The translations under genes and the position numbers were made by a program. Below, in pieces: positions 30,698-42,503 of a DNA stretch of 64,000 nucleotides. The notes beneath the pieces are model-generated. The model was not told where the DNA came from, did not search any database, and saw only the letters and a program-made list of their open reading frames with translations. Source of the DNA: Chromatiales bacterium (GTDB lineage: Bacteria > Pseudomonadota > Gammaproteobacteria > Steroidobacterales > Woeseiaceae); the NCBI GenBank assembly GCA_024679535.1, contig JAIBDF010000002.1, positions 41,053 through 105,052 on the forward strand, written 5' to 3'. Every line of letters starts with the position of its first letter. The first letter of the stretch is position 1.

Positions 30698-30760
30698 GGC
30701 GCCAGCATAACCGATGCGCAGATGACAAAACCCAGCATTTACCGCAAAGTAGGGGAGGTG

Positions 30761-32404
30761 ATGAATAACAACGCTACTAATCGGCAGCCCCCTTCGGTTG
30801 ACTTGCTCAGCGCCTTTTGCCTGTGTTTGCTGCTGCTCGCAGCGTGCTCGGATCCGCAAGCAGAGGAGCAGCCGAAGCCCGAGATCGAAGCGGTCGCAAG
30901 CGACGCGGCAGCGACCACCCCGAAGTCGGAATCCACAGAGTCTCAGGATGAGCCGACCAGATCATTGCCGTCGTTGGATGACTTGTTGCCGGAACAGTTC
31001 GGCGACCTGACCGCCCCGTGGTTCGGCGATCTGGATGGCATGATCGAACGGCGCGTCATCCGGGTACTGGTGGTTCCCGGCGGGCCACAGTTCTTCTATT
31101 ACAACGGCAAGCCCCGCGGCATGGTAGCCGAACTCCTGCATTTACTGCAGGAAGAGCTGAACGTCGGACTGGATCGCGGGCTGGACCAGGTTGAGATTTT
31201 GCCGATGCCAGTCAGTCGTGACCGGCTGATCGCGGCGTTGCTAAGCGGCAAGGCCGACATGGTCGCCGCCGATCTCACGATAACCGAAGCACGTTCGGAG
31301 CTGGTCGATTTTTCTATTCCATTTGCCCGTAACATCGACGAAGTGGTCGTCTTCGCACCAAGCGAGGGTGATGATGTTCTGTCACTGGACGATCTGGCCG
31401 GCCGTAGCGTGTATGTCCGTAAGTCATCCAGCTATTTCGAGCATCTAACCGAGCTTAATGTCGACCTCGTTGACCGCGGGCTCGCGCCCGTCCGGATAGA
31501 TCTGGCCAATGAGCTTCTGAGATCTCAGGATATTCTTGAGATGGTCAGTGCCGGTCTGGTTACAGCCACTGTTGTTGACAGCTACAAGGCGAGTTCCTGG
31601 TCAAAGATCTTATCTGGCCTGCGAGTCAGAGACGACCTGGTGGTGCACGGTGGTGGGTCGATTGCCTGGGCATTTCGCAAAGACAGTCCGCAGTTGGCGG
31701 CTGTTGCCAACGATTTTGCTCGCGGTCATCGGCAGGGCACTTTGATCGGTAACGTGCTGATCAATCGATACATGGAGAATCTCAATTGGGTTCGAAACTC
31801 GACATCGGAAGTTGGCGTTGCACGACTGCGCCCACTCATGGAACATTTCAACGCCAGCGGGGCCGGGAATGAAATTGATCCGCTGATGCTCGCAGCGCAA
31901 GGCTACCAGGAGTCAGAACTTGAACATGATCGGGAGAGCCCCGTAGGCGCTCGTGGCGTTATGCAGATTAAGCCGTCGACCGCCGCGGACCGCAATGTTG
32001 GCATTCAGGACATATCTGAGCCGTCTGACAACATAGAGGCGGGCGCCAGGTACATGCGCTTTCTGATGGACAGGTATTTCGCCGATCCCGACATGGGGGA
32101 ATTACAGCAATGGATGTTTGCATTGGCAGCATACAACGCCGGACCTGCCAGAATTCAACGCTTGCGCAGGCAGGCTACCGCCGAGGGATACGATCCCAAC
32201 CTGTGGCTGGACAATGTCGAAATAATTGCGGCGCGTAAAATCGGGCGAGAGACGGTCCGCTATGTTCGGAATACACTAAAATACTACGTCGCATACCGAT
32301 TGACGTGGAAAGAGCGAGAGCTACGGGAATCGCTTGTGACTGGTGTGCCTCAATCCAGACAACTACTTCCAGTGATCCGTGATGAACTCGTCTACCTCTG
32401 GTAG
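30761..32404 (+). CDS. MltF-like membrane-bound lytic transglycosylase (SBP_bac_3 + SLT)
   Basis: Lipobox 'LLLAACSD'; SBP domain 'ADMVAADLTITEARSELVDFSIPFARNIDEVVV'; SLT 'LMLAAQGYQESELEHDRESPVGARGVMQIKPSTA...NIEAGARYMRFLMD'. Confidence 0.9.
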   Translation: MNNNATNRQPPSVDLLSAFCLCLLLLAACSDPQAEEQPKPEIEAVASDAAATTPKSESTESQDEPTRSLPSLDDLLPEQFGDLTAPWFGDLDGMIERRVIRVLVVPGGPQFFYYNGKPRGMVAELLHLLQEELNVGLDRGLDQVEILPMPVSRDRLIAALLSGKADMVAADLTITEARSELVDFSIPFARNIDEVVVFAPSEGDDVLSLDDLAGRSVYVRKSSSYFEHLTELNVDLVDRGLAPVRIDLANELLRSQDILEMVSAGLVTATVVDSYKASSWSKILSGLRVRDDLVVHGGGSIAWAFRKDSPQLAAVANDFARGHRQGTLIGNVLINRYMENLNWVRNSTSEVGVARLRPLMEHFNASGAGNEIDPLMLAAQGYQESELEHDRESPVGARGVMQIKPSTAADRNVGIQDISEPSDNIEAGARYMRFLMDRYFADPDMGELQQWMFALAAYNAGPARIQRLRRQATAEGYDPNLWLDNVEIIAARKIGRETVRYVRNTLKYYVAYRLTWKERELRESLVTGVPQSRQLLPVIRDELVYLW

Positions 32405-33757
32405 ACCGCCCTGCAGGATCAGATAGCCATTGTGAGGCTCACGTTCAGTGATTTCATGGCTAACCGGATTGCGCATCATCGCCATGACATCATCGTGCTC
32501 GTCGGTGTGGCCGAGAACCCAGCCAAGCTTCATCAACGCGGTTTCGGGCAGCATGTTATCGAGTGGCACCACGCCGATATTGAGCAGGTCGCGCCCGGTA
32601 TCGTAGACGTACATCTGCGCAAAGCCCCACAGGGTCTGCACGGTCATGACGACATGGACACCCTGATCGATCGCACGCTTGAGGGCCGGGAAGAGTGGTT
32701 TGTTCACATGCCCAAGGCCGGTGCCGGCGATGACGATGCCGCGATAGCCTTTTTCCACGAGAGCATCGACCAGATCCGGCTTCATCCCCGGGTAGTAGTA
32801 GAGGATGGTGACCCGGTCGTCATGACGAGTGTCGATTCGGACTTTGCGCGTGCGATCACGTGGCAGATAGTCGGGGTTGATCGTGGTAAAACCGTCTCTG
32901 TCGACGACACTGAGCGGAACGTCGCCGATGGTTCGGAAGGTCGAGCGGTAGGAGCTGTGCATCTTGCGGCAGCGCGTGCCCCGGTGCAGCAGTCCGTAGC
33001 GGTCTGACGTGGGCCCGAACATGCAGATTTGTACCTCGGCGATATCGCCGCGGCCCGCGGCCGAGACGGCATGTATCAGGTTCAGGGCGGCATCGGATGA
33101 TGGCCGATCCGAGGATCTCTGCGAGCCGACGACAACGATCGGCACCGGACTATTCTGCACCATGAATGACAAGACGGAAGCGGTGTGGCCCATCGTATCG
33201 GTGCCGTGACCAATGACGATCCCGTCGGCGCCGCCCTCGATCGCCTCGCCGACCGCTTCTGCGAGCGTAACGTACTCGACCCAACTCATATTTTCGGAGA
33301 AAACGCCGAAGATCTTTCTGGTAGTCAGATTACAGAGCTCCGCAAGTTCCGGTACGGCCCCGTACAGTTCGCCCGGCGTAAACGCCGGAATCACGGCGCC
33401 GGTTCGGTAGTCGAGACGCGAGGCGATTGTGCCGCCGGTGCCAAGCAGGGTCACGTTCGGCAGGTCGGGCGTAACCGGAAACGCCTTCTCGGGGATCTTG
33501 TAGACCGCTTCCTTGAAACCAAGCTCCTCGATCGACTCGATACGATCGACGTGGATGCCGACGTTGTAACCGGTCTTTAGCTTGAGCACGACGTGCAGAT
33601 CGTCAAAGGTCTCGCTGCGCGGCAGGATGACGCCTTCGAAGGTGCTGCCTGCCGTATTCCTGACGCGAACGTCGCCCCACACCCGCATTCCCCAGTGTTC
33701 GAGGCGGGACCGTGCAAGGCCGCGATAGCCCTTCAGGGGGTCCTTGGTGTCACTCAT
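32363..33757 (-). CDS. gatD: Archaeal-type Glu-tRNA(Gln) amidotransferase subunit D
   Basis: N-terminal 'GVILPRSETFDDLHVVLKLKTGYNVGIHVDRI'; asparaginase core 'TLLGTGGTIASR', 'GHGTDTMGHTA', 'GSQRSSDRPSSDAALNLI', 'HRGTRCRKMHSSYRSTF'; ATGA overlap with gatE. Confidence 0.92.
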   Translation of the reverse strand: MSDTKDPLKGYRGLARSRLEHWGMRVWGDVRVRNTAGSTFEGVILPRSETFDDLHVVLKLKTGYNVGIHVDRIESIEELGFKEAVYKIPEKAFPVTPDLPNVTLLGTGGTIASRLDYRTGAVIPAFTPGELYGAVPELAELCNLTTRKIFGVFSENMSWVEYVTLAEAVGEAIEGGADGIVIGHGTDTMGHTASVLSFMVQNSPVPIVVVGSQRSSDRPSSDAALNLIHAVSAAGRGDIAEVQICMFGPTSDRYGLLHRGTRCRKMHSSYRSTFRTIGDVPLSVVDRDGFTTINPDYLPRDRTRKVRIDTRHDDRVTILYYYPGMKPDLVDALVEKGYRGIVIAGTGLGHVNKPLFPALKRAIDQGVHVVMTVQTLWGFAQMYVYDTGRDLLNIGVVPLDNMLPETALMKLGWVLGHTDEHDDVMAMMRNPVSHEITEREPHNGYLILQGGLPEVDEFITDHWK

Positions 33758-35718
33758 GTCCGTGCCTCCAACTCAGATGAAAGCGTGGAGGCGACCTCCA
33801 CCGCAGGTACCAGTCCCCTTAGCCCGGACATCAGGCATCCCATCAGGAATCGCTCGAACTGACCATCGTTGTAGGTCGGCTGCTGAAAGGGCTCGGTTTC
33901 GACCGCCGCTCGAACGCTCTCGGGAAGATCGTCCCACCGACGATCGAGCCCGAGACCGGTCAGGACCGTGTCGAGATCGGGCGACTCGGCGAGGCCCGAG
34001 ACAATTTCCTTCCACGCATCGCGTAGCGCCGGTTGCTGGCGAAAGCTATTGAAGAGCGCGAGCCAATCCTCGTCCGAAATCCGGTCAACCGGTACGCCGG
34101 AACGGCGCAGGCCCTTGAGGCGCTCACCAAAGAAATAGCAGGTCCAGGCGAGGTCGCTACCGCAATTTTCGACCACGAGATCGACCAGGCGTGCGCCGCC
34201 GCGTCGAATCAGAAAGTGGATCGTTGGCAGCGGAATCCCGACTTTGCCATAGCGTTTCTCACGTTCCCAGGGCGGCTCAGGCAAGGTGTCCTGCAGGCCT
34301 TGGACCCGACTCCGGGTCAACGCCTGCGGGGGAGAGTCGGTGTCGGGGTACATGCGGTCGGGTCCGGGCAAAATACGCTCGAAATCGGTCGATCCGTCCG
34401 CCTTCGGTTGTCGTGTTTCGTTCGGCACACCGTCGAGGGCATCGACATAGCGCAGCCGGATTTCGTCAGCTGCGGTAAGGGTGTCCTCAGCGGCTCCCCA
34501 GATGACGATCAGCGCATCATCGGCGCCACAGTCGAGCCCACTTCGGAGTCGCTCGAGCTCCTGCTCTGAGCCCTCGTAATCGGGCCAGTTCTCGTTGTGG
34601 ACGAAAGTTGGCTGCTGATCGAGGCAGGCGATCACGCGGACCCGGCCCATGAGTTCGTGCGCGAAGGTCAAACCCGGCTGCGTTGGCCAACTTAATGTTC
34701 GCGCCAGGCCTTGCAACACCACGGCACGCACGCAGAAATCGCCGCGACCGTGCTCAAGATCGGACCCGGGATCCGCGGCCCGTGTTGCACGCTCGCTCTG
34801 CCAGGCCGCGGCGCGAAAGTGATCCAGCCGCGAGTCCGCGACAAGCTGGGTGACGTCCTCGTGGCGGATGCGTATATCCCCGGCCTCGTGCAGCCCACGG
34901 CCGCGCAGTTCATCCCGCAATTCCAGTAAATTGACTTGTCGAGCTGCCTCGCCGTGAACCAGTGCAGGTGCCAGACCGGCCTTGGCGACCCCCTTGATCT
35001 CGACTCTGCGCCCGCCGGCGACGGAAACGTTGACATCCTGACGGCTTGCTCCCATGCCGACGCGAACATGCCCGGTCGAACGGCAAACCCTGCCAATACA
35101 CAATATTGCCTCTTCAACTTCCTCGGGTGTTCTCAGGTCAGGCCCCGTCACCGTCTCGATCAACGGCATGCCGAGTCGATCGGTACGCCAGACGATGAGG
35201 TGACCGCGGTCAGAAACCTCGCGGCAGCTGTCCTCTTCGACGCTGATCTGCGTAATCGAGATGCGCCGGTCCCGGAAGGGAATACTCCCCTCTACGCCGA
35301 CGATCGCGGTCCGCTGGAAACCCGTTGGTATCGATCCGTCGAGATACTGCTTGCGAGCAATATGAACCTCGTCGACGATATCGCAGCCAAGCATCAGGCA
35401 TTGCTCGATAGCGATATCAATGGCTTCCTGGTTGATGGGAAAGGGTGGGGTATCGTCCATCTCATAGGTACAGACGTTCGACTTGTGGAGCAGATAGACG
35501 ACGTTTTTTTTCGTCTTGAACTCCATTAGCGCGGTGCCGTCATATTCCCCAAGTTCCGACAGCGTTGGCCGCATGTGCCGCAGCACCGCACCATCATGAC
35601 TCGTGGTATAGACCCCGGCGGGGCAGTGGCAAAAGAGTTTTCGCCGGGTATCGAGCTGCTGGTGGACCTCGAGTCCGACCCGCAATCCAATTTTTTTGTA
35701 GTCCAGTGAAACTGTCAT
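33754..35718 (-). CDS. gatE: Archaeal-type Glu-tRNA(Gln) amidotransferase subunit E
   Basis: GatB/E core 'GLEVHQQLDTRRKLFCHCP', 'QYLDGSIPTGFQRT', 'DRLGMPLIETVTGPDLRTPEE', 'GASRQDVNVSV'; GAD-like insertion; C-terminal tail 'LMGCLMSGLRGLVPAVEVASTL'; start trimmed. Confidence 0.92.
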   Translation of the reverse strand: MTVSLDYKKIGLRVGLEVHQQLDTRRKLFCHCPAGVYTTSHDGAVLRHMRPTLSELGEYDGTALMEFKTKKNVVYLLHKSNVCTYEMDDTPPFPINQEAIDIAIEQCLMLGCDIVDEVHIARKQYLDGSIPTGFQRTAIVGVEGSIPFRDRRISITQISVEEDSCREVSDRGHLIVWRTDRLGMPLIETVTGPDLRTPEEVEEAILCIGRVCRSTGHVRVGMGASRQDVNVSVAGGRRVEIKGVAKAGLAPALVHGEAARQVNLLELRDELRGRGLHEAGDIRIRHEDVTQLVADSRLDHFRAAAWQSERATRAADPGSDLEHGRGDFCVRAVVLQGLARTLSWPTQPGLTFAHELMGRVRVIACLDQQPTFVHNENWPDYEGSEQELERLRSGLDCGADDALIVIWGAAEDTLTAADEIRLRYVDALDGVPNETRQPKADGSTDFERILPGPDRMYPDTDSPPQALTRSRVQGLQDTLPEPPWEREKRYGKVGIPLPTIHFLIRRGGARLVDLVVENCGSDLAWTCYFFGERLKGLRRSGVPVDRISDEDWLALFNSFRQQPALRDAWKEIVSGLAESPDLDTVLTGLGLDRRWDDLPESVRAAVETEPFQQPTYNDGQFERFLMGCLMSGLRGLVPAVEVASTLSSELEART

Positions 35719-35883
35719 CGCCCCAACTCTCCGGCCCTCGACAAAGCGCGCGAATAATAGCATTCCGGACCCATGGATCGAGCAACGTATAGGTTAGGCC
35801 CGCGACAAATCCTGACGCCCACCCAGACACCCGTGTGGGGGAGGGGACTTTCGTTGGTCAGTCTTGTCTACGGAGCTTCGAAT

Positions 35884-40883: not shown

Positions 40884-42503
40884 TCAGGACTGGATAGACG
40901 AGACGCCCCCGTAGGCGACGCCGGTCAGCTGACACATGTCCGTTTTGAACGATGTCAGGTCGTCGGCGTTGAATTCGGACAGGTGCCGGTGGCCGGCCGC
41001 GCGCGCAACGACCTGCATTAATTCCACCGATGCCGCGAAGAATCTCGCCAGGCGTTCTGCCGCAATATCGACCGGCAGTCGCTCCCGCAAATGCGGCTTC
41101 TGAGTCGCGATACCAACCGGGCAGTTATTCGTGTGGCATGCGCGCATACCGAGACAACCAATCGCCTGAATCGCAGCATTGGACACGGCAATGCCATCCG
41201 CGCCCAGAGCCATAGCTTTCGCGAAGTCAGCCGGGGTTCTCAGCCCGCCGGTAATGATCAGTGATATACCCTGCGCGTCGCTGGCATCAAGGTGTCTTCT
41301 TGCCCGAGCCAGCGCCGGGATGGTCGGTACCGAAATATTGTCGCGGAAGATCAACGGTGCTGCGCCGGTGCCGCCGCCGCGCCCGTCCAGAATGATGTAG
41401 TCGACACCGACCTCCAGTGCTGCATCGATGTCTTTCTCGATGTGCTGTGCGGAGAGCTTGAAGCCAACGGGAACGCCGCCGGTTCTATCGCGAACCTCAT
41501 CGGCGAAATCACGAAACTGGCTCAAGCTGTCCCACTCCGGGAACCGCGCCGGCGAGATGGCGGCCTTGCCCTCGGCCAGTTCACGGACTTCAGCAATCTT
41601 GCCCTTGACCTTGTTGCCTGGCAGGTGGCCACCGGTACCGGTCTTGGCGCCCTGCCCGCCCTTGAAATGAAAGGCCTGGGTTTTCTGCACCTTGTCCCAG
41701 GAAAACCCAAATCGTGCGGACGCAAGCTCATAGAAATAACGCGAATTGGCTTCCTGCTCCTCGGGCAGCATCCCGCCTTCACCCGAACAAATTCCAGTAC
41801 CCGCAAGTTCTGCTCCTCTCGACAGCGCGACCTTGGCTTCTTCGGACAACGCACCGAAACTCATGTCGGAAACGAATAGCGGAATGTCGAGTTTGAGCGG
41901 CTTCCTGGCGTTCGGGCCGATGACTATGTCCGTGCCTACCGCCTCTTCGTCCAGCAGCGGCAGCTTGTGCAATTGTCCAACGACAAACTGCAGATCGTCC
42001 CATTTCGGCAGGCTATTGCGCGATACGCCCATCGCCGCTGAGGGACCATGATGTCCTACCTTGCTCAGACCTTCATTGGCGAGCTTGCGGATGAGCTTTA
42101 CGTGCGGCTCATCTGCCGTGCCAGTGGGGTCCTGGTACGCGCCCTGATAACTGTTCCGATTGTAGGGCTGGGGATGATTCTTCGCCCAAAGGGCGATTTC
42201 GTCCTCATCCACGAAAACCTCGTCGCCTTCGAGCCAGGCATTGAATTTCGGCAGGGTCTCTGAGTTATCGTATTCGCTGACGCCAGTATCGAGGCGGTAG
42301 TCCCACCCATGCAGTCCACAAATGATGTTCTCGCCGTCGATATGGCCATCGGACATGAGCGCGCCACGGTGCGCGCAGCGTCCGTACAGCACACTGACTT
42401 CATCATCGTAACGAGTTACAACAAGATCGACGCTCGCGACGAGCGCGTGGGCAGGCACACGATCTTTGAGTTCGCGATGAGAAAATATAGATACTGCTTT
42501 CAT
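40884..42503 (-). CDS. Rieske [2Fe-2S] domain fused to glutamate synthase-type FMN domain
   Basis: 'CAHRGALMSDGHIDGENIICGLHGWDY' (CxH...CxxH) then GltS domain 'SDMSFGALSEEAKVALSRGAELAGTGICSGEGGML', 'KGGQGAKTGTGGHLPG', 'ILDGRGGGTGAAP'. Confidence 0.93.
   Translation of the reverse strand: MKAVSIFSHRELKDRVPAHALVASVDLVVTRYDDEVSVLYGRCAHRGALMSDGHIDGENIICGLHGWDYRLDTGVSEYDNSETLPKFNAWLEGDEVFVDEDEIALWAKNHPQPYNRNSYQGAYQDPTGTADEPHVKLIRKLANEGLSKVGHHGPSAAMGVSRNSLPKWDDLQFVVGQLHKLPLLDEEAVGTDIVIGPNARKPLKLDIPLFVSDMSFGALSEEAKVALSRGAELAGTGICSGEGGMLPEEQEANSRYFYELASARFGFSWDKVQKTQAFHFKGGQGAKTGTGGHLPGNKVKGKIAEVRELAEGKAAISPARFPEWDSLSQFRDFADEVRDRTGGVPVGFKLSAQHIEKDIDAALEVGVDYIILDGRGGGTGAAPLIFRDNISVPTIPALARARRHLDASDAQGISLIITGGLRTPADFAKAMALGADGIAVSNAAIQAIGCLGMRACHTNNCPVGIATQKPHLRERLPVDIAAERLARFFAASVELMQVVARAAGHRHLSEFNADDLTSFKTDMCQLTGVAYGGVSSIQS

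Follow-up and report, generated by a model that had tools for sequence, protein, structure and literature searches.

Introduction

Reviews published in 2022 describe GatDE as exclusive to archaea, one of them terming it an archaeal signature protein (PMC8762117, PMC9499178), and one of these builds an argument about LUCA and about the lack of GlnRS transfer on that exclusivity (PMC9499178). What, then, is an apparent gatD-gatE pair doing in a bacterial genome? The window analysed here is the whole 64,000-nucleotide stretch of contig JAIBDF010000002.1 of a Chromatiales bacterium, in which an initial annotation had pointed out an archaeal-type pair that looked horizontally acquired, with a retained or repurposed function. 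We consider below whether the genes are truly GatD and GatE, whether they belong to this genome, where they came from, and what they may do in their present host.

Results

Identity of the gene pair

Both open reading frames are intact, and the gatE stop codon overlaps the gatD start as ATGA (Table 1). GatD scores 490 bits against the NCBIfam equivalog model gatD_arch (cut-off 324), and GatE scores 404 bits against gatE_arch (cut-off 320) and 468 bits against PRK04028 (NF003107; cut-off 456), both GatE matches being full length. Because these scores lie above the NCBIfam cut-offs, the identity of the two proteins is not due to chance. The best GatB model reaches 134 bits on GatE against a cut-off of 338, and GatD is also above the cut-off of the type-I asparaginase model. 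The best PDB matches of GatD and GatE are the P. abyssi and M. thermautotrophicus subunits (E values of 1e-113 to 1e-116 and 1e-84 to 1e-88, respectively). We judge from these matches that the pair is a true GatD plus GatE, neither a stray asparaginase nor a GatB.

Read from its first ATG, gatE occupies positions 33754-35763 of the minus strand (669 aa), and the ATG at 35718 is in frame as codon 16 of this longer frame. The start at 35718 is at least as likely as that at 35763 and is the better supported of the two, since a congener of the host (G218) has GTG at this position, the M. thermautotrophicus protein starts nearby, and the model shows no structure for residues 1-17.

GatD consists of a GatD_N domain (residues 30-77), a type-I asparaginase-like glutaminase domain and a C-terminal tail found in the bacterial clade (below). 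The motifs GTGGTIAS and HGTDTMGHT and the lysine of RKMH are present, as the initial annotation had it, and their catalytic Thr, Thr-Asp and Lys residues do not vary among 62 bacterial GatD proteins. We take the functional roles of these residues, and of those in GatE, from what is known of type-I/II asparaginases and GatB. GatE consists of a GatB/GatE kinase cradle, a GAD insertion and a helical, YqeY-type tail, all of which are supported by HMM and model matches. Pfam calls GatB_N alone on the window protein, and calls GAD and YqeY in two other members of the clade (L071 and L078). The AlphaFold model of GatE has a pLDDT of 85.1, and its best matches are the archaeal GatE structures 1zq1_C and 2d6f. 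The gene positions, ATGA coupling, intact frames and domain make-up first read from the letters are thus all borne out.

Table 1. Features of the gatDE cassette (positions in the window)
Feature	Position	Strand	Basis
gatD, 464 aa	32363..33757	-	TIGR02153 490 bits; PF18195/PF00710/PF17763
gatE, 654 aa from likely start	33754..35718	-	TIGR00134 404 bits; NF003107 468 bits; AlphaFold best matches 1zq1_C, 2d6f
ATGA overlap of the gatE stop with the gatD start (translational coupling)	33754..33757	-	sequence
GatD Thr110, first catalytic threonine (GTGGT)	33428..33430	-	invariant in 62/62 bacterial and both archaeal GatD
GatD Thr186-Asp187 (HGTD), second catalytic pair	33197..33202	-	invariant in 62/62 bacterial GatD
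GatD Lys265 (RKMH), catalytic lysine	32963..32965	-	invariant in 62/62 bacterial GatD
GatD C-terminal tail, EPHNGYLILQGGLPEVDEFITDHWK	32366..32440	-	kept in bacterial clade, absent from two archaeal stretches (alignment)
GatE Glu176-Glu177-Asp178 (EED, common with GatB), kinase-site motif	35230..35238	-	invariant in 82 bacterial GatE
Cassette common to window and congener G218, 91% DNA identity, immediate flanks differ	32363..35786	.	blastn

Provenance of the contig

The host assembly is a MAG of 3.49 Mb (95% complete) in 237 contigs, and an assembly of this kind could hold a contaminating contig binned with it by mistake. The tetranucleotide signatures of the two window halves match the other contigs of the bin at 0.90-0.91, compared with 0.08-0.81 for ten loci of other holders of the clade, so we assign the window contig to the bin. 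The cassette also occurs in a second MAG of the genus, where a gene close by is orthologous to one in the window (77.8% DNA identity), and we consider contamination very unlikely.

Two further features of the window may be recorded here. An MltF-like solute-binding/lytic transglycosylase gene (30722-32404) lies tail to tail with gatD, and the same arrangement is present in two distant Bacteroidales loci (L108:3932-5371 and L110:11622-13118) and absent from congener G218; it may reflect chance or co-transfer. One open reading frame at 40884-42503 joins a Rieske [2Fe-2S] domain to a glutamate-synthase FMN domain.

Distribution among bacteria

A mixed bacterial-archaeal GatE alignment was used as the query in a scan of 84,980 prokaryotic species genomes. 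When the loci were ranked by similarity to the window GatE, the best 80 were all bacterial and came from about 15 phyla, a ranking that is uninformative on the number of archaeal matches. These phyla include Acidobacteriota, Myxococcota, Planctomycetota, Ignavibacteriota, Bacteroidota, Gemmatimonadota, Aminicenantes, KSB1, Fermentibacterota, Krumholzibacteriota, Zixibacteria and Cloacimonadota, among others. The pair is truly GatDE, as had been proposed, and it is no one-off in bacteria but a member of a broad bacterial branch. Within its own lineage it is rare: GatE is above cut-off in two of 73 genomes of the genus (the window genome and G218), in two of 396 genomes of the order (both within the genus) and in one of 398 genomes of the phylum. 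In the phylum of a complete Ignavibacteria genome (G401) the count is 22 of 296.

GatD is present at 66 of the best 80 GatE loci, mostly directly downstream or overlapping, and several of the remainder are cut by contig ends. No conserved neighbor besides GatD was found across the 80 loci, where the recurrent clusters are broad families or synteny among close relatives. A PhoH-family-like gene (the family judged by eye) lies directly upstream of gatE at L076, L079, L080, L085 and L096, loci of related Ignavibacteria/Bacteroidetes genomes, an arrangement that likely reflects plain synteny.

A viral scan gave no GatE relatives, and a search for a mobile carrier of GatDE found none, plasmids and phages giving GatB plus a single haloarchaeal GatE. 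The latter lies on a Natrinema thermotolerans megaplasmid (L128:3405-5356), where the N- and C-terminal parts of gatE are in different frames and the collection's table has no gene entry.

Phylogeny, acquisition and selection

Trees were built from 82 bacterial and three archaeal GatE rows (with two archaeal rows for GatD), the archaea all being Euryarchaeota. In the GatE tree a 100% branch divides the 82 bacterial rows from the three archaeal ones, and the window and G218 proteins are nested with full support in an eight-row Acidobacteriota/Myxococcota set. The GatD tree is concordant. When GatB is used as the outgroup, support is 100/100 for GatE, 100/97 for the archaea and 84/93 for the bacteria, and the window protein groups with GatE, away from GatB (100/100). 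The phylogenetic check suggested with the initial annotation therefore places both subunits in a bacterial GatDE clade.

Did the pair come straight from an archaeon? The families were first described from archaea (hence the model names gatD_arch and gatE_arch), but the window proteins are 34-35% identical to those of archaea versus 63-66% to those of Acidobacteriota/Myxococcota MAG relatives and lie inside a supported bacterial subclade in all three trees, and we regard direct transfer from an archaeon to this bacterium as extremely improbable. Because the pair nests inside the Acidobacteriota/Myxococcota subclade, the recent transfer would have been from bacterium to bacterium. The pair is thus judged to be horizontally acquired in this genus, and this part of the earlier proposal stands; there is no sign that an archaeon was the direct donor.

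The window and G218 loci have one nearby gene in common, and the cassette is inverted relative to it. Compared between the two species, GatE has a dN/dS of 0.130 and GatD one of 0.063 (dS about 0.3). The two genes have been kept as functional proteins by purifying selection since the window species and G218 parted, in agreement with the intact frames and catalytic residues (above).

Other routes to Gln-tRNA in the host and in related holders

The genome checks proposed with the initial annotation gave the following. The host encodes GlnRS (C62, 717 bits), a complete and separate GatCAB operon, and GluQ. The operon lies in gatCAB-mreB gene order, an arrangement known from Pseudomonas that suggests a gammaproteobacterial host. 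Its own tRNA-Gln(UUG) and tRNA-Gln(CUG) both carry U1:A72, whereas the archaeal enzyme is reported to recognise A1:U72 together with the D-loop (PMC9499178). No gltX was found in the window assembly. This bacterial GluRS gene is above cut-off in 27 of 73 genomes of the genus, and some of the 46 without it are 99-100% complete. In relatives gltX adjoins tRNA-Ala/tRNA-Glu genes (L130), and among the host's own tRNA loci scanned, tRNA-Ala(GGC) and tRNA-Glu(UUC) are likewise absent. Since these flanking tRNAs are missing too, the lack of gltX is probably an assembly or binning loss in this genome rather than real biology.

Fifty GatE-bearing bacterial genomes were compared. GlnRS is above cut-off in 40 of them and present as fragments in two more (about 42 of 50), and GatB is present in about 18. 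This co-occurrence of GlnRS, and often of GatB, means that most holders do not depend on GatDE alone for Gln-tRNA(Gln). The complete Ignavibacteria genome G401 has GlnRS, GluRS and GatDE without GatB. Two apparent holders without GlnRS were discarded, one because its GlnRS match abuts a run of N (G400) and the other because the match lies at a contig end (G429). In a Neomarinimicrobiota MAG (G418; L175, L176), GatDE occurs with two GluRS genes, and GlnRS and GatB were not found; this is possibly a bacterium that makes Gln-tRNA through GatDE.

Divergence of the tRNA-contacting domains

Bacterial GatE pairs with 55-65% identity in the catalytic domain are 30% identical in GAD and 23% in the tail, whereas archaeal pairs with 57-58% catalytic identity are 43-56% and 32-37% identical in these regions, a baseline that consists of three sequences. 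Among bacterial GatE proteins, 111 of 278 catalytic columns reach 95% conservation, but not one of the 160 tail columns does. GatB of the window's order, taken as a control, has 31 of 193 tail columns conserved at 95% or more versus one of 179 in the Ignavibacteria-like GatE subset. The bacterial clade also has invariant residues of its own, namely GatD Arg262 and the C-terminal tail, and GatE QYLDGSIP (xVIDGSN in archaea) near the catalytic cradle. This divergence, together with the clade-specific residues, points either to tRNA being recognised in another way or to a different substrate.

Discussion

How does the pair compare with the enzymes that it resembles? It has the two subunits, domain order, catalytic residues and GatE fold of archaeal GatDE (P. 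abyssi 1zq1, M. thermautotrophicus 2d6f) and passes the same equivalog cut-offs. It differs in belonging to a bacterial sister clade (with three Euryarchaeota sequences sampled), in the clade-specific residues of both subunits, in GAD and tail domains that change faster, in its coexistence with GlnRS and in a host tRNA-Gln that lacks A1:U72. With bacterial GatCAB, which the same genome encodes, it has in common the GatB cradle and EED motif of GatE, but GatE has a GAD insertion, scores far below the cut-offs of GatB models and is split from GatB by a 100/100 branch, and its partner is the asparaginase-type GatD rather than the amidase GatA. The catalytic domain of GatD is like that of type I L-asparaginases, which differ in that GatD has GatD_N, is coupled to gatE and finds GatD proteins as its top matches.

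Enzymatic activity of the pair is predicted from homology and the catalytic residues, while the substrate and physiological role proposed here are a guess. GatD would hydrolyse glutamine, and GatE would, in an ATP-dependent manner, phosphorylate a carboxylate and then amidate it with the GatD-derived ammonia. We favor, with about even confidence, an amidotransferase of accessory or altered role outside the canonical Gln-tRNA pathway, whose two-gene cassette would have entered the genus recently from another bacterium with a GatDE of the Acidobacteriota/Myxococcota subclade and would have been retained by purifying selection. Having both GlnRS and GatCAB, the cell would not need it for bulk Gln-tRNA(Gln). 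Its most likely task would be the accessory amidation of a tRNA misacylated with Glu (or Asp), serving for clearance or as a backup, and its recognition of tRNA would be altered.

A strong rival to such an accessory tRNA amidotransferase, though one we hold clearly less probable, is that the glutaminase/kinase chemistry has been kept and repurposed to amidate something other than Glu-tRNA(Gln), perhaps no tRNA at all. The coexistence with GlnRS in most holders, the low GAD and tail identities at like catalytic identity, the tail without a single column conserved at 95% and the clade-specific invariants in the GatE cradle and GatD tail all agree with this. That GAD and tail change faster could mean that the enzyme has ceased to act on tRNA, and QYLDGSIP and other cradle invariants hint at a changed substrate. 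On the other side, GAD and the YqeY-type tail are still there, GatD is the only conserved neighbor, so that no other pathway is indicated, and the archaeal baseline is three sequences. Of the two outcomes first offered for the function, retained or repurposed, the second is suggested by the redundancy with GlnRS and GatCAB and by the fast tRNA-contacting domains. It is possible, and we say so tentatively, that the whole bacterial branch (about 15 phyla, mostly beside GlnRS) acts on another substrate, its catalytic core frozen and its tRNA-reading domains released.

It is rather unlikely that GatDE works here as in archaea, converting the product of a non-discriminating GluRS to Gln-tRNA(Gln). 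Family membership, the intact active sites and the gene content of G418 would fit such a route, but the host has its own GlnRS and GatCAB, its tRNA-Gln carries U1:A72 in place of the A1:U72 that archaeal GatDE reads with the D-loop (PMC9499178), and in G401, which lacks GatB, GatDE co-occurs with both GlnRS and GluRS. That GatD matters alone, as a plain asparaginase/glutaminase with GatE as a passenger, would agree with its match to the type-I asparaginase model but hardly with a GatE that is intact, invariant in its catalytic core and under selection (dN/dS above), and we think it very improbable.

No report of a bacterial GatDE branch was found in the literature searched, a search that did not extend to subscription papers and preprints, and the branch is apparently undescribed; the NCBIfam models recognise its members, which may already be so labelled in databases with no remark made on it. 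A broad bacterial branch beside GlnRS removes the archaea-only premise, and GatDE can no longer be safely used to mark archaea in metagenomes. It also offers a natural case of an enzyme of indirect tRNA aminoacylation that persists beside the direct one.
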